DNA of 64,000 nucleotides from Flavobacteriales bacterium (GTDB taxonomy: Bacteria > Bacteroidota > Bacteroidia > CAIKAF01): positions 1 to 64,000 of the forward strand of contig JANWKT010000016.1 in NCBI GenBank assembly GCA_025451235.1, in the 5' to 3' direction. Shown here in pieces: positions 42,266-51,919 of the stretch (its first letter is position 1; each line of letters opens with the position of its first letter). A program made the translations under genes and the position numbers. The notes beneath the pieces are model-generated. The model had not been told where the DNA came from. It worked only from the letters and a program-made list of their open reading frames with translations, and did not search any database.

Positions 42266-43030
42266 ATGAAAAAAATGTATCAATTGGGTCTTATTGCTGC
42301 GCTGGTTGCGCTGCTCCCCGCAGGAATGCTATTTGCAGGAAACGGTAATGGAGAGGGTGAAGGTAAGAAGAATTCCGTAAGTATGACGAAAACTTCCGGA
42401 ACAGCTCAATCTGTAACATTTACAGTATACACCCCGGAGATGGTTGCTATCGAAAGTATCGATATTCTTCCAAGGGATCCTTCGGCTTCCATTAAAGAAA
42501 TCAATCCTGTTCTGGGTGGATTTGAAGTGGTGGTTGATTTTGTTCCCGTAACCAATTATGATGCAAACCCCAATAATGATGATGTTATTATATTTGATAT
42601 TGTAGGGGTAGATAATATTACCGGGGTAGATGGATCCAACAACAATGATGGTACCCATATTCAAACCAATATTTCTGAAGCGCAGGAAGGTATAACCAGT
42701 TCAAATGGAAATAATGGGCAAGGCAATGGAATTGGTTGTATCAATCCAAGTGCCAGCACCAACCTAACTCCAGCCTTTTCTTCAACCCGTACTGATATCA
42801 ATATCTTCCCAAACCCAGTGGTTGATGAGACCAATGTTGTAACAGTGGGTGAGATTCTTGGAAAAACCATTAATATAATGGACCTCACCGGTAAAATGGT
42901 TTTATCGCTAGCCATTCCTAACAGCCGTTCAACTGTATTAAATCTTTCCCAGTTGAATCCGGGTCTGTATATCTTGAATTATGAGACCGAGGATGGAAAA
43001 GTGATCTCAAAAAGGATCCAAAAGATCTAA
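42266..43030 (+). CDS. Small T9SS type A secreted protein
   Basis: 254 aa from ATG 42266 (the longer frame begins at TTG 42242). Signal peptide MKKMYQLGLIAALVALLPAG followed by MLFAG. A single beta-sandwich-like region follows (VSMTKTSGTAQSVTFTVYTP, VEVVVDFVPV-like strands, DDVIIFDIVGVDN), then a Gly/Asn-rich linker (SSNGNNGQGNGIGCIN) and a type A sorting domain (INIFPNPVVDET, ISMDLTGK-like, LNLSQLNPGLYILNYETEDGKVISKRI). It is compact for a T9SS cargo. Function unknown; ended by a clear terminator. Confidence 0.82.
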   Translation: MKKMYQLGLIAALVALLPAGMLFAGNGNGEGEGKKNSVSMTKTSGTAQSVTFTVYTPEMVAIESIDILPRDPSASIKEINPVLGGFEVVVDFVPVTNYDANPNNDDVIIFDIVGVDNITGVDGSNNNDGTHIQTNISEAQEGITSSNGNNGQGNGIGCINPSASTNLTPAFSSTRTDINIFPNPVVDETNVVTVGEILGKTINIMDLTGKMVLSLAIPNSRSTVLNLSQLNPGLYILNYETEDGKVISKRIQKI

Positions 43031-43293: not shown

Positions 43294-43323
43294 TTGTAGA
43301 ACCATGAAATATTGTTAAATTTG
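43294..43323 (+). promoter_or_regulatory. Promoter of cassette 1
   Basis: TTG (43294-43296), 19-nt spacer, TAAATTTG (43316-43323), a full match to the Bacteroidota pattern. The leader before ATG 43355 would be about 27 nt. Confidence 0.7.
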
Positions 43324-43354
43324 AACATTACTAAACCCGAAAACCGAGTTGATT

Positions 43355-43741
43355 ATGAAATACATCGTTTTTACATTTCTCTTATGCTTGGCAGGTACAC
43401 AATTGTATTCTAACAATACAACAGTTCCTACCACTCCTTCCAGTTCAGCTAGCTATTATAGTGAGGCTGATCTTTATAGCTATACGTTTACGATAGCAGG
43501 CATAGATCAATATGGATATAAACCATTTATTGACTTTATTGAATCTACTTTCGGAAAAAGACCTGTTTATAACGAAGCCACCGGTAGATTCAATGATGCT
43601 AACGGGATGTTCCAGATCGTTGATTGTTCAATCAATATCACACAGGCTTCCTTTACTCAAAAAATAAGTGAATTAGGGCTTGAAGTAACCAGCTTTACTA
43701 CAGTTGCCAAAGTATCTACCAACCCTTCTGATCATAAATAA
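43355..43741 (+). CDS. Small secreted protein of cassette 1
   Basis: 128 aa from ATG 43355 (the frame also has TTG 43349). Signal peptide MKYIVFTFLLCLAGTQLYS, then a Thr/Ser-rich linker. Next is a compact domain whose order looks beta-alpha-beta-beta-alpha-beta: YSYTFTIAGI, YKPFIDFIESTFGK, VYNEATGRF, MFQIVDCSINI, TQASFTQKISELGL, EVTSFTTVAK. This is the topology of ferredoxin/HMA-like domains, but the CxxC metal pair is absent. It is 14 nt upstream of the T9SS gene, so the two are co-transcribed. No family recognised. Confidence 0.75.
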   Translation: MKYIVFTFLLCLAGTQLYSNNTTVPTTPSSSASYYSEADLYSYTFTIAGIDQYGYKPFIDFIESTFGKRPVYNEATGRFNDANGMFQIVDCSINITQASFTQKISELGLEVTSFTTVAKVSTNPSDHK

Positions 43742-43755
43742 TAACCTAGCTAACC

Positions 43756-44871
43756 ATGAAAAAATTATTACTACTTACCTCTTTAATGACCTGCTTTTCA
43801 ATAGCTGTTCTGCAGGCTCAGACCAACTGTAGCTCGGCCATCCCTGTTTGCAGCGATGCTTCCTTTGCGGGTGGTTCACCAGGTTTTGGTGTACAGGAAT
43901 TGAATGCCAGTAACCGTGGTTGCTTGGTTGCTAATGAGCACCAGTCTACATGGTTTGGATTTTCTCCTCAGTTAACGGGAACCATCCAATTTCTTATTTC
44001 TCCTGCCGCAGGTCCGGCTACTGATTATGACTTCGCGATTTGGGGACCTTTTCCTCCGGGAACCGGTTGCCCAATCACAAGTACACCTACCCGTTGTTCT
44101 TATAGCGACAACACTACGCCAACAGGTTTAACCGCCACTGCACTTGACTTTACCGAAGATTTTACCGGAGACGGGTTCGTGAACCAACTTACCATTGGTG
44201 TAGCACAAATTGGACAAGTATATTTTTTACTCGTAGATAACTGGACTGGAAATTCCAATCCATTTACCTTGGATTGGACCCTAGCTCCTGTTAATATATT
44301 GGATTGTACTCCACCCCTACCAGTTGAAATGCTCACTTTTGAAGCATATCCTAATAAAAAAGTAAACGAAATATTCTGGACCACTCAAACAGAAGTAAAC
44401 AGTGCTTATTTTATGATTGAAAAATCAAATGATGCTGTTAATTACTCCGAGTTAGGCCGAACAACTGCTGCCGGCAACTCAAATGTGCTGCTGGACTATT
44501 CATTTGTGGATGAATCACCTTACCCTGTTACCTATTATAGGATCAAGCAGGTGGATAAAAATGGACAATCCAAAACGTATGGTCCGATGGTCGTGAACAA
44601 TGAACAAGCAAGTGGATTGGCTGTGGAAAATGTGTATCCTAACCCGGCAAGTGAATCTTTCTTTGTAGATATTTTTGCCAAGGAAGCACTTCCTGTAGAC
44701 ATATTTGTTTATGATTCATACGGCCAATTGATCCATACCGAAATGGTTGAAGTAGAAGGGAAAGTGAACCACGAGATCAAATCATCTACATGGCCCTCAG
44801 GTATTTATATTATAAAAATGATCAATGATAGCTATGGATTGAACGAAGTGAGAAGAGTAGTGATTAATTAA
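43756..44871 (+). CDS. T9SS type A protein of cassette 1
   Basis: 371 aa. Signal peptide (MKKLLLLTSLMTCFSIAVLQ, then A). One beta-sandwich domain follows (CSSAIPVCSDASFAGGSPGF, STWFGFSPQLTGTIQF, DYDFAIWGPFPPGTGCPIT, TPTRCSYS), then the PPLPVEMLTFEAYP linker and an Fn3-like region (WTTQTEVNSAYFMIEKS...YYRIKQVDKNGQSKTYGP). The type A sorting domain (NVYPNPASESFFVDIF, WPSGIYIIKMIND, VRRVVIN) ends it. It is a near relative of the second half of the 45473-46996 protein. Terminator directly downstream. Confidence 0.88.
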   Translation: MKKLLLLTSLMTCFSIAVLQAQTNCSSAIPVCSDASFAGGSPGFGVQELNASNRGCLVANEHQSTWFGFSPQLTGTIQFLISPAAGPATDYDFAIWGPFPPGTGCPITSTPTRCSYSDNTTPTGLTATALDFTEDFTGDGFVNQLTIGVAQIGQVYFLLVDNWTGNSNPFTLDWTLAPVNILDCTPPLPVEMLTFEAYPNKKVNEIFWTTQTEVNSAYFMIEKSNDAVNYSELGRTTAAGNSNVLLDYSFVDESPYPVTYYRIKQVDKNGQSKTYGPMVVNNEQASGLAVENVYPNPASESFFVDIFAKEALPVDIFVYDSYGQLIHTEMVEVEGKVNHEIKSSTWPSGIYIIKMINDSYGLNEVRRVVIN

Positions 44872-44891
44872 TAAAATATTAAAATCTTATT

Positions 44892-44922
44892 AAAAAGGCC
44901 TCCAATATGGGGGCCTTTTTTT
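44892..44922 (+). terminator. Terminator of cassette 1
   Basis: GGCCTCC / GGGGGCC stem (one G·T pair) extended by A/T pairs, loop AATAT, then TTTTTTT. Confidence 0.9.
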
Positions 44923-45057
44923 GTTGGTCCCTGTTTATCCATTGATATGAAATCATTAGGTGTTCTTCGTCTAATCAGTTTAGCCATTCCTCCTGGTTTG
45001 TTACTTCATCTGGACATATGTCCTGTATCCGGATTAACCAGAAGGGCCAAAAAATAT

Positions 45058-45065
45058 TATATTTG
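45058..45065 (+). promoter_or_regulatory. -7 element of cassette 2
   Basis: TATATTTG, 45 nt before ATG 45111. No good TTG at standard spacing. Confidence 0.5.
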
Positions 45066-45110
45066 GCTGCAGTAAATTGAATATTTTCAGATCCCATTAA
45101 AAGAAACATT

Positions 45111-45452
45111 ATGAAAAGAACATTACTCTTTCTCTTCTTAGTAGTGAGTAGCTACCTTGGTATTAAGGCACAAAATGCCAATTTTAGCAGTTATCTCATT
45201 TATTGCGAAGAGATCAAAACAGAAACTTCTTCCAATACTTTAAGAAGTTATTTACTCGAAAATTTTCCTGAAAAGATCTCCCAATACACCGCCAATCTTA
45301 GTGATCAAACAGCGGTGGTTGTTACGATTGTTCAGCCTATAGATATTCTCCAACTTTATCGTCAAAATGGTTATGAGGCTGTTCTGCTTGAGAATGGTAA
45401 AAGATATTTCTTAAACATACCAGGCGACCAATTAGTAACGATCAAAGAATAA
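45111..45452 (+). CDS. Small secreted protein of cassette 2
   Basis: 113 aa with signal peptide MKRTLLFLFLVVSSYLGIKA. The mature part again reads as beta-alpha-beta-beta-alpha-beta: FSSYLIYCEEI, SSNTLRSYLLENFPEKI, SQYTANLSD, TAVVVTIVQPI, DILQLYRQNG, YEAVLLENG. It is not obviously alike in sequence to the cassette 1 protein, but is in the same place, of similar size and of the same predicted topology. 20 nt before the T9SS gene. No known family. Confidence 0.72.
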   Translation: MKRTLLFLFLVVSSYLGIKAQNANFSSYLIYCEEIKTETSSNTLRSYLLENFPEKISQYTANLSDQTAVVVTIVQPIDILQLYRQNGYEAVLLENGKRYFLNIPGDQLVTIKE

Positions 45453-45472
45453 CGACAAAATCGCTCTATCCC

Positions 45473-46996
45473 ATGAAAAAAATATTTCTCATACTTGCAT
45501 TGGTTTATTCTACAGGAATAGGATTTGGCCAAACCGATAATCCATGTGGAGCTACTGTATTAACGGTAGCCGCCACCTGCACATATGCTGCCGGGAACTT
45601 TCCGGCCTCCTTAACGGCTACCGCTGGAGTGCCAGCACCTACCTGTTCAAGCTATCCAGCCGGAAGTGATGATTCGTGGTATCAGTTTACTGTCCCGGCT
45701 TCAGGAGCGGTAACCATTGATCTAAATACTGGAACGCTTACTGATATGGGTATGGCCTGGTACTCGGGCGCCTGCGGTGCGCTTACTCAGATTGCCTGCG
45801 ATGATGACAGCAGCCCTAATGGGTTAATGCCAATGATATCTATGGGTTCGCTTACACCCGGTGCAACTATTTGGGTAAGATTATGGGAATATGGCGGAAA
45901 TGCCAATGGAAATTTTACTATTTGTGCTTATGATCCCAGCGATCCTTCGCAGGATTGTGCAGGAGCAATTCCGGTCTGCAATGATGCCACCTTTGCCGGT
46001 AATTCGGGAGGATTTTTAAATCAGGAATTATCAGGCCCACAACAAGGTTGTTTAACAGGTGAAGAAAATCAAACCACTTGGTTTGGGTTTTCTCCTCAGC
46101 TTACGGGTACCATTCAATTAACCATTACACCAACCGCCGGAGCAATTGACTATGATTTTGCGATTTGGGGTCCTTTTCCTGCGGGAACAGGTTGTCCGAT
46201 CACCAGCACACCTACCAGATGCTCATTTGCTGCAGCCACTGGTCCAACTGGATTGCAAACCGGAGCTGGAGATCAAACGGAAGGTGCCGGAGGAGATAGA
46301 TGGGTAGATCCTCTTGTGATTGGCGTGGGTCAGATAGGAATGGTTTATTATCTGGTTGTAGATAATTTTACCGCTAACACTACTCCATTTACATTAGATT
46401 GGACACTTTCTACTCCTGGTATGTTGGATTGTACTCCTCCTTTGCCTGTTGAATTAGTGAATTTTGAGGCATACCCCGATCATAAAATCAATCATGTTCA
46501 TTGGATCACCCAAGTGGAGATCAATAGTGATTATTTTATTGTTGAACGGTCGAGCGATGGAATCAATTATGAAGAATTCGGCCGGGTGAAGGCTGGTGGA
46601 AACTCAAATATTTTATTGGAATATGCTTATACCGATACCGACCCATTTCCAACCACTTATTATCAACTCAGGCAGGTTGATTTGAATGGAGCATTTAAAA
46701 ATTATGGCCCGATCGTTATTAATAATGAAGAAGCTCAAGGGATTTCATTACGTAATATCTATCCAAATCCAGCTGATCATTCTTTCTACCTAGATATGTA
46801 TTCAAAAGATCCTATTCCGGCCGACGTATTCGTTTATGATTCCTATGGCAAAATGGTATACTCAAAACTCATTGGAATAAATGGGATGACCACCTACGAA
46901 ATTCCATGTTCACAATGGGCCTCTGGCATCTATGTGGTAAAAGTGATCAACGAAGCAGTGGGACTCAATCAGGTAAGAAGAGTAGTGATCAACTAA
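45473..46996 (+). CDS. T9SS type A protein of cassette 2
   Basis: 507 aa. Signal peptide (MKKIFLILALVYSTGIGFGQ). The first PPC-like domain (DNPCGATVLTVAATCTYAAG ... DDSWYQFTVPASGAVTIDL, about 20-160) resembles the second domain of the 29160-31244 protein. The second domain (AIPVCNDATFAGNSGG, TTWFGFSPQLTGTIQLTI, DYDFAIWGPFPAGTGCPIT) is close to the cassette 1 protein. PPLPVELVNFEAYP linker, Fn3-like stretch and type A sorting domain (NIYPNPADHSFYLDMY, WASGIYVVKVINE, VRRVVIN) follow. It looks like an added-domain version of cassette 1. Confidence 0.88.
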   Translation: MKKIFLILALVYSTGIGFGQTDNPCGATVLTVAATCTYAAGNFPASLTATAGVPAPTCSSYPAGSDDSWYQFTVPASGAVTIDLNTGTLTDMGMAWYSGACGALTQIACDDDSSPNGLMPMISMGSLTPGATIWVRLWEYGGNANGNFTICAYDPSDPSQDCAGAIPVCNDATFAGNSGGFLNQELSGPQQGCLTGEENQTTWFGFSPQLTGTIQLTITPTAGAIDYDFAIWGPFPAGTGCPITSTPTRCSFAAATGPTGLQTGAGDQTEGAGGDRWVDPLVIGVGQIGMVYYLVVDNFTANTTPFTLDWTLSTPGMLDCTPPLPVELVNFEAYPDHKINHVHWITQVEINSDYFIVERSSDGINYEEFGRVKAGGNSNILLEYAYTDTDPFPTTYYQLRQVDLNGAFKNYGPIVINNEEAQGISLRNIYPNPADHSFYLDMYSKDPIPADVFVYDSYGKMVYSKLIGINGMTTYEIPCSQWASGIYVVKVINEAVGLNQVRRVVIN

Positions 46997-47017
46997 AAAT
47001 AATGGCCTAATCATCAT

Positions 47018-47048
47018 AAAAGCCCTTCCGTCCGTAAGGGCTTTTTTT
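47018..47048 (+). terminator. Terminator of cassette 2
   Basis: AAAAGCCCTT (47018-47027) and AAGGGCTTTT (47036-47045) with loop CCGTCCGT, then a T-run. Confidence 0.9.
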
Positions 47049-47086
47049 GTTTTTTTTTGTCAGCTAATCCTGTCTTGCGCTCTAGT

Positions 47087-47182
47087 GCCGTCAATGACCT
47101 GCACAGCGATTCTAAGCCCTTACCTGGTGGGCTTTTTGCTACTCGGCAAGGGCAATGCTGCTTGGTGCAGGCCATTGGCGGC
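47087..47182. repeat. Structured intergenic island B with long stem
   Basis: The left arm 47087-47104 (GCCGTCAATGACCTGCAC) and right arm 47165-47182 (GTGCAGGCCATTGGCGGC) form an 18-bp stem with one A-C mismatch and one G·T pair. The enclosed part holds AAGCCC/GGGCTT and further small stems. No ORF. It could be a MITE-like remnant, a member of the dispersed intergenic family, or a structured RNA. Confidence 0.55.
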
Positions 47183-47270
47183 AGCTACTGCTTCAACCAG
47201 GACTGCTTTTAAGAATAATTTAATCCGTAAGATGACACCCTAAAAGGATCTAGATATAGGTCTAAAAACT

Positions 47271-47278
47271 TATATTTG
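47271..47278 (+). promoter_or_regulatory. -7 element of cassette 3
   Basis: TATATTTG, 40 nt before ATG 47319; no TTG at standard spacing. Confidence 0.5.
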
Positions 47279-47318
47279 GCATACTTCCAATAAGATACTC
47301 ATGTAAACCAATATCATT

Positions 47319-47741
47319 ATGAAGACAAGGTTAAGAAAAAACACTTATTTATCTCTTGCTTGTAAAGCTATCCTCCCCTTAGCCATAGCAATTCTCTCTT
47401 TGAATTTTCAATATGCTCTTGCCCAAGCACCCGATCAATCAGGCATTATTTATAGTGCCGGAACCAACGGCGAAGAGTTTAACCATATCTGTATCAAGTT
47501 TGAAAATAGTATCAGTGCCGATCAGGAATCTAGCATCCATACCGAATACAATAAATATCCGGGAATTAAATCGATCGTCCTTAATGTCAATGAAGGTTAT
47601 ATTTATCTCAAATACACGAATGAGATAAGTGCCAACCAACTATTGGCCATTCTTGATAAGATCAATTTACCTGGGCATTATTTAAGTAACGGAGTCCCCA
47701 CTTATTATCAAAAAGACAATAGCATTTACTTTATTAGATAA
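47319..47741 (+). CDS. Small secreted protein of cassette 3
   Basis: 140 aa. A long signal peptide (MKTRLRKNTYLSLACKAILP ... FQYALAQ) is followed by a domain with the order FNHICIKFENSI, DQESSIHTEYNKYPG, IKSIVLNVNEG, YIYLKYTNEI, ANQLLAILDKINLP, GHYLSN. This again fits beta-alpha-beta-beta-alpha-beta, closest of the three to an HMA-like pattern but without metal-binding cysteines. 20 nt upstream of the 1250-aa T9SS gene. Function unknown. Confidence 0.75.
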   Translation: MKTRLRKNTYLSLACKAILPLAIAILSLNFQYALAQAPDQSGIIYSAGTNGEEFNHICIKFENSISADQESSIHTEYNKYPGIKSIVLNVNEGYIYLKYTNEISANQLLAILDKINLPGHYLSNGVPTYYQKDNSIYFIR

Positions 47742-47761
47742 GAACCAAAACAATTTTGCTC

Positions 47762-50700
47762 ATGAAAAGATATATACTTTTATTAGCTATTAGTTCCTTA
47801 CTAATTTTTAACCGATCATTCGGGCAGTTCAGCTATACATTTAATGCTGTTGGGGGAACTTATACAGCTAACTTCCTTCCAACATCCATAGTTGCTGCCA
47901 ATTCTGATGACGTCTTATCGCCTGTTACTAATATTGGATTTAATTTTACTTATGCTTGTAATACCTATACGCAGTTCAGGGCATGTTCGAATGGATGGCT
48001 AACCTTTAACACAGGAGTAACCGGTACAAATCTTACCAATAACCTCAACACAAGTACCGATCGTCCAATGATTGCCCCCTTATGGGATGACCTTCAAACA
48101 GGCTCTGCGGGTGACGTAAATTATAAATTAACAGGAACCTCTCCCAATAGAATTCTAACCATAGAATGGAAAAATATGGAATGGAATTATGTAGCTGCAG
48201 GACCGGTTATTTCATTCCAGGTAAAATTATACGAAACAACCAATGTAATTGAATTTGTATACCTGCAAAATGCAACGGCAGTAAATTCTGGCAGTGCTTC
48301 TATAGGTATTGGAGGTCCAACTTCGGGCCAGTTTTATTCTTTAGGGAATACTTCCGCAGCTCCTCCGGTTTCATCCGTTACTGAAACTACCACACTTAGC
48401 ACCAAGCCTGCCAATGGACAAATTTATAGGTGGACACCATCAGCGCCTTTATGCTCAGGAACACCAGCCGGCGGTATAGCGAATGCTGCACCTGCCTCAA
48501 CAAGCTGTGCTTCGCTTACAACTACTTTAACTTTAACCGGCGCATCTTCTTCATGTGGCATTATGTATCAATGGCAATCATCACCGGATAATATTGTTTG
48601 GACCAATATTGCCGGTGCTAATGGAACATCTTATGTTGCTACCAATAGTACCAACACGTATTATAGATGTGTGGTAACATGTACCAATAGTGGTTTATCA
48701 GCTAACTCAGTTGTGGTCCTGGTTAATTTTGTAGGAGCTGCTCCGGCTAACGATTTGCCTTGTAATGCAACTGCTTTGACTTTAGGAATTCCAGGAGGTG
48801 GAGATAATACCTGTTCCGGAAATGCAAGTGAACCTGCAGCTCCAGCCTGCTGGATCAACGGAACCATTAATACTGTTTGGTATACATTTGTCGCACCGGC
48901 GGGTGGGACAGTAAAAATAAAAACAGTTCCTGTTTCAACGGGAACCCCATTACAGAACACTCAGATCGCAGTGTATTCGGGAACATGCGGAGCTTTAACG
49001 TTGGTAGCGTGCAACGACGATGCCCCTGCATGCGGTTTCTATACACAGGTCAATTCTGAGTTATCACTAACCGGACTTACTCCCGGGGCAACATACTTTG
49101 TGGTGGTGGATGGAAATATGACCGCCCAAGGACAATTTGAGATCCTTGCGATAAATGGAAGTGGAAACTTCCCTTTGGTTCCTGGACAAGATTGTCCATT
49201 ATCATTTCCAATATGCAATCAAACAACTACCATAGGAAATCCAGGCTATCAGGTCATCGGAGGGCAATGTGATAATACCGGTGCAGCAATTTCGGAGTGT
49301 ACAAGTGGTGAGGCCAATTCGGTTTGGTATACCATCAACATTGCAGCTGGAGGAAATCTGGATTTTGATATTATCCCTAATGACTATGGAAATCCAAATC
49401 CAATAACTGGTCAGGTTAACACTGGCTATACCGGTTCGGGAACCGAAACTGATTATGATTGGGTACTATGGAAAACTATTGGTGCAGGATCAACTACATG
49501 CGCAAATATTATGAGTTCCGGTGGAGACTTGTCCATCAGATGTAATTTTAGCTTCTTAGGAGTTACAGGATGCTCTCCAACTGGAAATACTCCAGCCGCC
49601 TATGGCCCACCCAACTTTGATGCAGCTTATGAAACGTCCCCAGCTGTGGTTGCGGGTGAACAATATGTGCTGGCAATTCATAATTTCTCCAACTCTACTT
49701 CTGGATTTACAATTCAATTTCCAGCAGGATCACCTGTAGCCTTTACACCTACCACTACTTACTATTGGTCGGGTGGTGCAGGTACAACTGCCTGGACAAC
49801 TTCTGCCAATTGGGGTGGTTGCGGAACGCCGGATTGTGCACATGATGCAGTAGTTACTTCAGCTTCTTCCTTTCAACCTTCTTTGCCTGCGGGAACTTAT
49901 AATGTTAGGGATCTAACTATAAATCCGGGAGCCACTCTTACTTTACAAAATGGGGCCAACTTGAATATTTGTGGGCACTTCACCAATAACGGAAACCTAG
50001 TATGTCAGGCAGGATCAACCATTACTTTTGTTGGAACTGGTGTACAAAATGTTACTGGTTCATTTGTAAATGCAGATGGGTTTTATCACCTCACTGTAAC
50101 AAAAGCTTCAGGTACTGTAGTACTGAATAATAATATTGACGTAAAAGGAAACTTTACAACCAGCAGCGCAACAAGTGTATTCAACTCGAATAACCGCTAT
50201 GTAAAAGTGGCTGGTCATTTTGCCAATAATGCAGGTAATACCACTTATACAAATCCGGGCCCAACAGGTACATTAGAATTTAACGGAACAGCCGGTCAAA
50301 ACTATAACCAGGGGAGTTCTCAATTAGACTTAAATTTTGTGCTGATGAACCATACCGGACCAGGAGTAACTTTGTTATCCAATATGTTCATCATGACCGG
50401 TACCGGCACTTTAACCCTTACACTCGGGAAAATAAATACGGGGGCATTAAGGGTGGATGTAGCCAACAGTGCTCCAACATCCGTTACTGTGGGAAATACC
50501 AATAGTTATGTGAACGGAAATTTATGGAGAACTGTTTTAGCAGGTGGAGGTGCATATAATTTCCCGGTTGGTACCGCCGCCTTGTATGAAAGAGCACTCG
50601 TCACCTTAGCTGCCAATACCTATACTCGGTTGCAATCGAGATTTGATCCTTGGCCTAGCGGACCTAATATACAAGGCGGATCTGAATGTACCGTAACATA

Positions 50701-51511
50701 CAGTCTTCCTTCAGAAGATATGGGATATTGGACCATTACCCAGACCGGCGGAAATACTGGAAGTTACAATATGACCTTATATTGTAATGGAGCCACCAAT
50801 ACAGCCGGGGCAATGGCATGGACAGTTGAAAAGGCTGCATCAGTAGTTGGACCATGGACGTTAAATGGAACCTGTGCCGCTTCTACAGCTACAGTAGTTA
50901 ACAGAAATGGAATGAATGGATTCTCGGTATTTGGCGCCGCACAAGCCCCTACTCCCCTTCCAGTTCAACTCACCTCATTTGATGGTTATCCTGAGGATGA
51001 CGTAAATATACTTACCTGGGTTACTGAATCTGAAGTGAACAACAGCCATTTTATTGTTTTAAAATCAAATGATGGAATTCAATATTCGGAAATGGAAAGA
51101 GTTGAGGGGTCTGGGAACTCAAATACCATCAAAAATTATTCAGCAGTTGATGAAAATCCATATGGAATAACTTACTATATGTTGAAACAAGTGGATTTGA
51201 ATGGAGCATTTGTAGAGTATGGTCCTATCGTTATTTCTAATAGCAATGTGGATGAGTTTAGTATTCATAATATCTATCCAAATCCTGCTGATGAATCCTT
51301 CTTTATAGAAATATTCTCTAAAAATGAAGTCACTGCTCGTCTGGATATTTTTGATTCATATGGTCGAGTAATATATAACAAACCACTAACCATTACCGGA
51401 TTAAATACCATAGAAATTGAATCTCTTCACTGGTCGGCTGGTGTATACACTGTAAAAGTCATCAACGAAGAATTAGGGTTCAGCTTTATAAAACGGATTG
51501 TGATCCAATAA
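47762..51511 (+). CDS. Large T9SS type A protein of cassette 3
   Basis: 1249 aa from ATG 47762 (the longer frame starts TTG 47756). Signal peptide (MKRYILLLAISSLLIFNRSF, then GQ). Order: an N-terminal beta-sandwich (NIGFNFTYACNTYTQFRACSNGWLTFN, about 25-220); Ig-like segment (TTLTLTGASSSCGIMYQWQS); a PPC-like domain (ANDLPCNATALTLGI); another domain with DYDWVLWKTIGAG; a YYWSGGAGTTAWTTSANWGG module followed by a beta-helix-like stretch (about 660-900); a PLPVQLTSFDGYP linker; Fn3-like region; and a type A sorting domain (NIYPNPADESFFIEIF, WSAGVYTVKVINE, IKRIVIQ). It is probably a fibrous adhesin. The last ~180 aa are closely related to the cassettes 1 and 2 proteins. Confidence 0.88.
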   Translation: MKRYILLLAISSLLIFNRSFGQFSYTFNAVGGTYTANFLPTSIVAANSDDVLSPVTNIGFNFTYACNTYTQFRACSNGWLTFNTGVTGTNLTNNLNTSTDRPMIAPLWDDLQTGSAGDVNYKLTGTSPNRILTIEWKNMEWNYVAAGPVISFQVKLYETTNVIEFVYLQNATAVNSGSASIGIGGPTSGQFYSLGNTSAAPPVSSVTETTTLSTKPANGQIYRWTPSAPLCSGTPAGGIANAAPASTSCASLTTTLTLTGASSSCGIMYQWQSSPDNIVWTNIAGANGTSYVATNSTNTYYRCVVTCTNSGLSANSVVVLVNFVGAAPANDLPCNATALTLGIPGGGDNTCSGNASEPAAPACWINGTINTVWYTFVAPAGGTVKIKTVPVSTGTPLQNTQIAVYSGTCGALTLVACNDDAPACGFYTQVNSELSLTGLTPGATYFVVVDGNMTAQGQFEILAINGSGNFPLVPGQDCPLSFPICNQTTTIGNPGYQVIGGQCDNTGAAISECTSGEANSVWYTINIAAGGNLDFDIIPNDYGNPNPITGQVNTGYTGSGTETDYDWVLWKTIGAGSTTCANIMSSGGDLSIRCNFSFLGVTGCSPTGNTPAAYGPPNFDAAYETSPAVVAGEQYVLAIHNFSNSTSGFTIQFPAGSPVAFTPTTTYYWSGGAGTTAWTTSANWGGCGTPDCAHDAVVTSASSFQPSLPAGTYNVRDLTINPGATLTLQNGANLNICGHFTNNGNLVCQAGSTITFVGTGVQNVTGSFVNADGFYHLTVTKASGTVVLNNNIDVKGNFTTSSATSVFNSNNRYVKVAGHFANNAGNTTYTNPGPTGTLEFNGTAGQNYNQGSSQLDLNFVLMNHTGPGVTLLSNMFIMTGTGTLTLTLGKINTGALRVDVANSAPTSVTVGNTNSYVNGNLWRTVLAGGGAYNFPVGTAALYERALVTLAANTYTRLQSRFDPWPSGPNIQGGSECTVTYSLPSEDMGYWTITQTGGNTGSYNMTLYCNGATNTAGAMAWTVEKAASVVGPWTLNGTCAASTATVVNRNGMNGFSVFGAAQAPTPLPVQLTSFDGYPEDDVNILTWVTESEVNNSHFIVLKSNDGIQYSEMERVEGSGNSNTIKNYSAVDENPYGITYYMLKQVDLNGAFVEYGPIVISNSNVDEFSIHNIYPNPADESFFIEIFSKNEVTARLDIFDSYGRVIYNKPLTITGLNTIEIESLHWSAGVYTVKVINEELGFSFIKRIVIQ

Positions 51512-51532
51512 TAAAAATAGCTATTTATGGTC

Positions 51533-51562
51533 AAGGGCCCTCTTCGAAGGGCCCTTTTTTAT
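51533..51562 (+). terminator. Terminator of cassette 3
   Basis: AAGGGCCC / GGGCCCTT with loop TCTTCGAA, then TTTTTT. Confidence 0.9.
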
Positions 51563-51695: not shown

Positions 51696-51816
51696 AATTT
51701 ATAAAGAAGAGGTGAGAGCACAGGCTCAATGACCCTCTGGCAACCCCGCGATACCGGCCCAGGCCGGCAGGAAGGTGCTTCAACCTGCTCCGATGAAAGA
51801 CGGAGAACTATAAATT
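51696..51816 (+). ncRNA. SAM-I (S-box) riboswitch
   Basis: P1 closes with AATTTATA (51696-51703) and TATAAATT (51809-51816). The core shows AGAGGTGAGAGCACAGGCTC, then AATGACCCTCTGGCAACC (kink-turn region of P2). P3 is CCGGCC/GGCCGG, the conserved AAGGTGCTTCAACCTGC follows, then TCCGATGAAAGACGGA and GAAC, all as expected for S-box leaders. It should bind S-adenosylmethionine and control the gene(s) after it. There is no T-run after P1, so control is probably not simple termination. The uORF start lies 8 nt after P1, so P1 can affect its translation. Confidence 0.93.
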
Positions 51817-51823
51817 AAATATT

Positions 51824-51919
51824 ATGTATACAACAAAAATTCTTCTTAAGACATCTGATCAGCAACTATTTTTTGCTGAAACAACGTGTGTATCCCATTC
51901 ATTCCGAATGCGAATGTAA
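51824..51919 (+). CDS. 31-codon ORF between SAM riboswitch and hom (leader peptide candidate)
   Basis: ATG 51824 starts 8 nt after P1 of the riboswitch and ends at TAA 51917-51919. The peptide begins MYTTKILLKTSDQQ and ends CVSHSFRMRM, basic with three methionines (one is the start) among its 31 residues, two of them in the last three positions. It is not a run of regulatory codons as in the thr leader. The A-rich DNA before it would suit Bacteroidota initiation. A short leader peptide whose translation is gated by the riboswitch, or a chance ORF, are both possible. Confidence 0.5.
   Translation: MYTTKILLKTSDQQLFFAETTCVSHSFRMRM

Follow-up and report, generated by a model that had tools for sequence, protein, structure and literature searches.

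What does a small secreted protein do when its gene stands immediately ahead of a T9SS cargo gene, and when the same pair of genes recurs three times in succession? The question is raised by a stretch of 64,000 nucleotides (hereafter the window; contig JANWKT010000016.1, positions 1 to 64,000) from a 4.28-Mb Bacteroidota assembly that is 98% complete and encodes at least 150 type A CTDs (150 of 379 candidates scored). Three consecutive units occupy its plus strand, each consisting of a -7 box, a small signal-peptide gene, a type A T9SS cargo gene and a terminator (Table 1). A first-pass annotation of the window had described this layout, and we confirm it: the open reading frames, boxes, gaps and terminators lie where they had been placed, and the small proteins S1, S2 and S3 are 128, 113 and 140 aa long. 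The intergenic gaps measure 14 nt between S1 and A1 and 20 nt in both S2–A2 and S3–A3. The -7 boxes (starting at 43316, 45058 and 47271) are located 31–45 nt ahead of the ATG of the small genes, and the occurrence of TAnnTTTG within the last 150 nt at all three has a chance probability of about 0.0005, as estimated from base shuffles. The terminator scan overall gave no excess over shuffles, so the evidence for the terminators consists of the position and quality of the perfect stems. One transcript per cassette is predicted from this layout. All three cargos carry type A CTDs (TIGR04183/PF18962) that score above the NCBIfam curated and Pfam cut-offs, as well as N-terminal Sec signal peptides, recognized as hydrophobic signal sequences by inspection and with a crude predictor. 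Beyond cassette 3, a SAM riboswitch (RF00162, 63.4 bits, positions 51696-51816, plus strand) precedes a homoserine-dehydrogenase-like gene, from which it is separated by a 31-codon open reading frame (51824-51919).

Table 1 Features of the three cassettes and of the flanking gene T0 (window coordinates).
Feature	Position	Strand	Basis or remark
T0, small T9SS type A gene flanking the array, outside any cassette	42266..43030	+	ORF and CTD
-7 promoter element TAAATTTG, cassette 1	43316..43323	+	sole TAnnTTTG of the intergenic region, 31 nt 5' of the S1 ATG
S1, small Sec-secreted protein, 128 aa from ATG, fam1 member	43355..43741	+	HMA-like beta-alpha-beta-beta-alpha-beta fold (model), without CxxC
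A1, T9SS type A cargo, 371 aa	43756..44871	+	ORF and CTD match
DYDF domain of A1	43816..44289	+	A1 residues 21-178
Type A CTD (TIGR04183) of A1	44632..44868	+	profile match
Terminator 1, 13-pair stem and T tail	44892..44920	+	stem scan
-7 promoter element TATATTTG, cassette 2	45058..45065	+	sole TAnnTTTG of the intergenic region
S2, small Sec-secreted protein, 113 aa	45111..45452	+	ORF; congener orthologue is the only detectable relative
A2, T9SS type A cargo, 507 aa, N-terminal galactose-binding/PPC-like domain	45473..46996	+	ORF and CTD match
DYDF domain of A2	45944..46414	+	A2 residues 158-314
Type A CTD of A2	46757..46993	+	profile match
Terminator 2	47018..47045	+	perfect stem
-7 promoter element TATATTTG, cassette 3	47271..47278	+	sole TAnnTTTG of the intergenic region
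S3, small Sec-secreted protein, 140 aa, fam4-related by profile	47319..47741	+	HMA-like fold (model), without CxxC
A3, multidomain T9SS type A cargo, 1249 aa from ATG	47762..51511	+	ORF and CTD match
DYDF domain of A3	49181..49732	+	A3 residues 474-657
Type A CTD of A3	51272..51508	+	profile match
Terminator 3	51533..51556	+	perfect stem

The cargos have in common a domain of ~155 aa, named DYDF in this analysis, with the conserved stretches EHQxTWFGFSP and DYDFAIWGP and conserved cysteines. No Pfam family covers this domain, and no solved structure was matched to it by sequence. The GBD_T9SS_assoc (PF23759) and PPC models, typical of T9SS surface proteins, match the N-terminal part of A2 but leave the DYDF domain itself uncovered. 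The C-terminal ~180 aa reported in the first-pass annotation as shared among the cargos are indeed present but represent a generic T9SS module (from about residue 315 onward, A2 has matches in dozens of T9SS proteins encoded elsewhere in this genome), and what is distinctive about the three is the preceding DYDF domain, which all of them share. Growth of the cargos by domain addition likewise describes the step from A1 to A2 well (58.6% over 348 aa, with an additional N-terminal domain in A2) but extends only loosely to A3. Overall, the cargos look like beta-sandwich adhesins. Elsewhere in this genome, two tandem pairs of DYDF T9SS genes are found without any small gene (G000:C7:391000-394700 and G000:C32:25600-28400), the first of which ends in an unusual H-rich tail (THFHGDGGAHWYGE).

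A general rule by which a small signal-peptide gene would precede any T9SS gene was rejected (12/181 T9SS genes versus 20/391 other secreted genes, under loose criteria and across about half of the genome). The association is with the DYDF cargos. Under a tight rule (80-190 aa, signal peptide and a gap of up to 50 nt), a small secreted gene is located directly upstream of five of the seven DYDF type A genes of this genome, compared with 2 of 176 other T9SS genes (p = 2.7e-7). When the trio of the window, which had drawn attention in the first place, is set aside, the proportions are 2/4 versus 2/176 (p = 0.002); the two DYDF cassettes outside the window are on contigs C25 and C44. In other genomes, the small gene is upstream in 44 of 62 cases with DYDF and in none of 14 without it. 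That the DYDF domain always comes with a small gene was also rejected: the phylum-wide sample consists mostly of type B cargos devoid of one. Specifically, of 53 cargos associated with a small gene, 44 have a type A CTD and none has a type B CTD (TIGR04131), and 43 of the 46 DYDF cargos without a small gene in the phylum-wide sample are type B. Thus, the small partner goes with the combination of DYDF and a type A signal, not with T9SS cargos in general. There are type A DYDF cargos without a small gene (the G000:C7 pair, L153, L181, L196, L208 and L211). A search for SprF immediately downstream of DYDF cargos with a type B signal revealed no obvious gene. Small secreted proteins are also encoded ahead of two T9SS genes without DYDF in this genome. 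One, of 118 aa, is encoded 15 nt before a 1242-aa T9SS gene (L092, G000:C17, 846-4946) and contains the motif FPVFVNTGNPxxDxxNYxxAKxxWI, which also ends several cassette small proteins of other genomes; the other, of 129 aa and of another kind, is encoded 8 nt upstream of a 428-aa T9SS gene (L058, G000:C8, 10039-11723).

The two-gene arrangement is old and widespread. A cargo-only scan, in which an alignment of the cargo core was compared with 84,980 prokaryote genomes, identified 76 loci (67 of them evaluable), chiefly in Flavobacteriales, including Crocinitomix (Crocinitomicaceae), and in some other Bacteroidota. The first-pass annotation had raised the prospect that small genes might be absent from homologous T9SS loci elsewhere, and this is not what we found: under the strict rule, the cargo gene is immediately preceded by a small secreted gene at 48 of the 67 evaluable loci. 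At six further loci, the upstream position is taken by a short open reading frame with a signal peptide missed by the heuristic, and inspection added small upstream genes at L169 and L187. The small proteins across these loci range from 96 to 186 aa, and the commonest gap to the cargo gene is -4 nt, that is, a 4-nt overlap. Reciprocally, a profile of the S1 family (34 sequences), searched at E <= 1e-4 against 295 genomes drawn evenly from the class, produced 16 matches in 14 genomes. Fifteen of them immediately precede a DYDF cargo gene or, at contig ends, a DYDF-type secreted gene, and the remaining match is an ordinary HMA protein with CxxC in an apparent metal locus. The canonical CxxC HMA proteins at this sole non-cassette match (L253, G149:C5, 2549-3801) may hint at where the small family came from.

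Several observations support the earlier proposal that the cassette multiplied as a unit. A congener (G001, a Flavobacteriales MAG, JANWKQ01) also has three cassettes at the syntenic place, in the order of an S2 orthologue with its cargo followed by two cassettes with S1-homologous small proteins, the latter 79% identical to each other. The same genes follow the array in both genomes, one homoserine-dehydrogenase-like and the next 7TM-HD-like (names from sequence reading), and the C-terminal part of T0 is found beside the congener's array as well. Tandem arrays of two to four cassettes occur elsewhere, including four in a row, 175-235 nt apart, in G220. Finally, small proteins and cargos diverge together: across 44 fam1 pairs, their distances are correlated with a Mantel r of 0.68 (reached in 0/2000 permutations), to which the species tree contributes, and the cleaner test is the one within loci, where re-dealing the small proteins among the cassettes of one locus reached the observed r in 14/2000 trials, indicating that the pairing is kept inside arrays. 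No convincing fusion of a cargo gene with a small-protein gene was found, the one long ORF match being an N-terminally over-extended frame in a GC-rich contig. The pairing of small gene and cargo is well supported.

Mean identity is 17% among the small proteins and 49% among the DYDF domains. Divergence of the small protein that is much faster than that of its cargo is expected of a specific partner, and it also fits weak constraint. Fast divergence and tandem arrays are, in addition, what could be expected of an effector/immunity or toxin-antitoxin pair, along the lines of the toxin-like effector proposed in the first-pass annotation. We consider such a pair extremely unlikely: A1–A3 contain no catalytic or toxin domain and resemble beta-sandwich adhesins, and the small gene is upstream and its product periplasmic. 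Among the options raised earlier ('chaperone, cap or toxin-like effector'), the fold and the genomic context point to a chaperone or co-subunit, with nothing in favour of a toxin.

The small proteins S1, S2 and S3 display no likeness to one another by BLAST. Single-sequence searches with S2 and S3 recovered almost nothing beyond one congener, and the family surfaced only via the cargo. Profile-profile comparison relates S3 to fam4 (95.6%), and in the S1 family, fam1, a single lysine close to the beginning of helix 1 is invariant (34 sequences). No relatives of S2 are detectable beyond one congener orthologue, and descent of the three as sequence paralogues is not demonstrable for S2. The small proteins of L139 (G000:C25), L048 (G001:C206) and, marginally, L150 (G000:C44) form a separate family, fam5, with no detectable relation to S1–S3. 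AlphaFold2 models of S1 (pLDDT 77, a moderate confidence) and S3 (pLDDT 72) adopt the same beta-alpha-beta-beta-alpha-beta fold, and the secondary-structure pattern of S2, judged by eye, appears to resemble theirs. Foldseek aligns S3 with HMA/copper-chaperone structures at target-normalised TM scores mostly of about 0.75-0.86 (rmsd about 1.7 A); for S1, the better HMA matches are less close (0.57-0.69). By sequence, the small proteins carry a Sec signal peptide and no T9SS signal of their own. Glutamine follows the plausible signal-peptidase site in 49 of 59 of them; a glutamine after the cleavage site is the Q-rule of Bacteroidetes (PMC5837995). Several of those from Flavobacteriales also end in a segment with the motif TGNxxxDxxxYxxAKxxW.

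This fold, together with a distant profile similarity and the weak match of a canonical CxxC HMA protein to the family profile, places S1 and S3 beside the HMA/copper chaperones (PF00403; CopZ, Atx1 and MerP), and a metallochaperone or metal-sensing partner that delivers metal to the cargo can be envisioned on this basis. Such a role is very unlikely given that CxxC is absent from all 64 small-protein domains and that no metalloenzyme domain was found in A1–A3. Pfam HMA gives no match for S1–S3 and only single weak matches among their relatives (E 0.0008 and 0.067), short of the gathering score, and the small proteins further differ from HMA chaperones in being secreted and coupled to a T9SS cargo. 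The weak sequence conservation could alternatively reflect a co-transcribed passenger or a translational leader without physical partnership, as short coupled upstream genes can set the translation of the next gene. A leader, however, needs neither a signal peptide nor a conserved fold nor an invariant lysine and would have no reason to accompany a single cargo domain through many taxa, which makes this explanation distinctly improbable.

The small protein is most likely a cognate periplasmic partner of the cargo, more probably an escort chaperone than a co-subunit, a binding and a function that we infer from context and fold. Under this model, each cassette would encode a DYDF type A surface protein and its own small periplasmic partner, the latter made first from a presumed single transcript; the upstream place of the small gene and the frequent 4-nt overlap suggest matched dosage, with the partner produced first. 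The small protein, an HMA-like domain of ferredoxin type in which the CxxC site was lost or never existed, would be exported by Sec. Once in the periplasm, it would bind the cargo encoded beside it, and a possible mode of contact is the pairing of edge strands with the DYDF domain or an adjacent beta-sandwich domain. Until the CTD arrives at SprA/PorV, such binding may protect the cargo or maintain its competence to fold; the small protein would afterwards be released or carried out as a bound subunit. We assign this explanation of the two-gene unit, with a dedicated small periplasmic partner, a probability of roughly 0.5. The location of the small gene beside a single cargo gene is that of a dedicated chaperone. 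Published work, however, regards a type A CTD with no helper other than PorV as enough for secretion (PMC10202324, PMC12618676), so that in principle such cargos could do without a chaperone of their own.

Instead of working only as a periplasmic chaperone, the small protein might leave the cell through the T9SS bound to its cargo and be built into a surface structure. A Sec signal peptide without a CTD, the near-obligate pairing and a divergence faster than that of the cargo are all compatible with such a surface co-subunit, and the extra C-terminal TGNxxxDxxxYxxAKxxW segment of some families could be an exposed binding segment. Yet the small protein has no T9SS signal of its own, its upstream and translationally coupled placement suits a chaperone equally, and to our knowledge piggy-back export is not established for partners of this type. 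We regard exit as a surface co-subunit as possible, although doubtful. The exported small protein probably serves the large cargo as a dedicated helper or subunit.

One of the closest known systems is the T9SS type B substrate with its PorP/SprF shuttle, in which the cargo gene adjoins its own partner gene, several pairs occur per genome and each cargo has one partner (PMC12618676, PMC9143113). A type A counterpart of PorP/SprF, deciding after secretion where or how the cargo is attached, would follow the same one-to-one cognate logic (PMC12618676), and the small gene accompanies the type A, not the type B, versions of DYDF. This role is nonetheless unlikely, as a small soluble protein with a ferredoxin fold bears no resemblance to a barrel of the outer membrane and type A cargos are already served by PorV and the PorU sortase. 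The cassettes depart from the type B arrangement in further ways: the cargo is type A (none of the 53 small-gene cargos matches the TIGR04131 CTD), the partner of 96-186 aa is encoded upstream and is soluble and, in the S1 and S3 models, HMA-like, SprF is a barrel encoded downstream, and DYDF cargos with type B signals do without the small gene. A cargo-specific partner on a type A protein is unexpected because, in published work, type A CTDs need only PorV and cognate partners are a type B feature (PMC12618676, PMC10202324).

Our literature search, with subscription papers and preprints mostly outside its reach, found no description of a small protein paired with a DYDF cargo, and the first-pass annotation had likewise known of no described system of this form. 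Two-gene units with a metal-site-free partner of copper-chaperone fold thus seem to be undescribed in the many Bacteroidota that carry them, and the odds are about even that their small proteins constitute a new class of periplasmic partners, HMA-fold proteins without the metal site that serve one large T9SS type A family, each as the escort or co-subunit of a particular cargo. Two uncharacterized protein families, the small HMA-like proteins and the DYDF domain, are named in the process. Type A cargos are the most numerous T9SS substrates, and their export is regarded as dependent on no more than a CTD and the general shuttle PorV. If most members of a widely conserved family come with a small periplasmic partner encoded in tight coupling, the pathway gains a step specific to the cargo, one that is directly testable in cultured Crocinitomix.

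NapD is a cytoplasmic protein that binds a Tat signal peptide, unlike the exported small proteins of the cassettes. Tests for homology between the two gave a single chance-level Pfam match (E 0.23). The likeness to NapD-type export chaperones (PF03927) is one of principle: as described in two papers (PMC3712460, PMC4159696), these too are small ferredoxin-type-fold proteins dedicated to one exported protein. If our reading of the cassettes is correct, type A export does not always proceed by CTD plus PorV only, and one and the same cargo domain would follow a different partner logic depending on whether it bears a type A or a type B signal.
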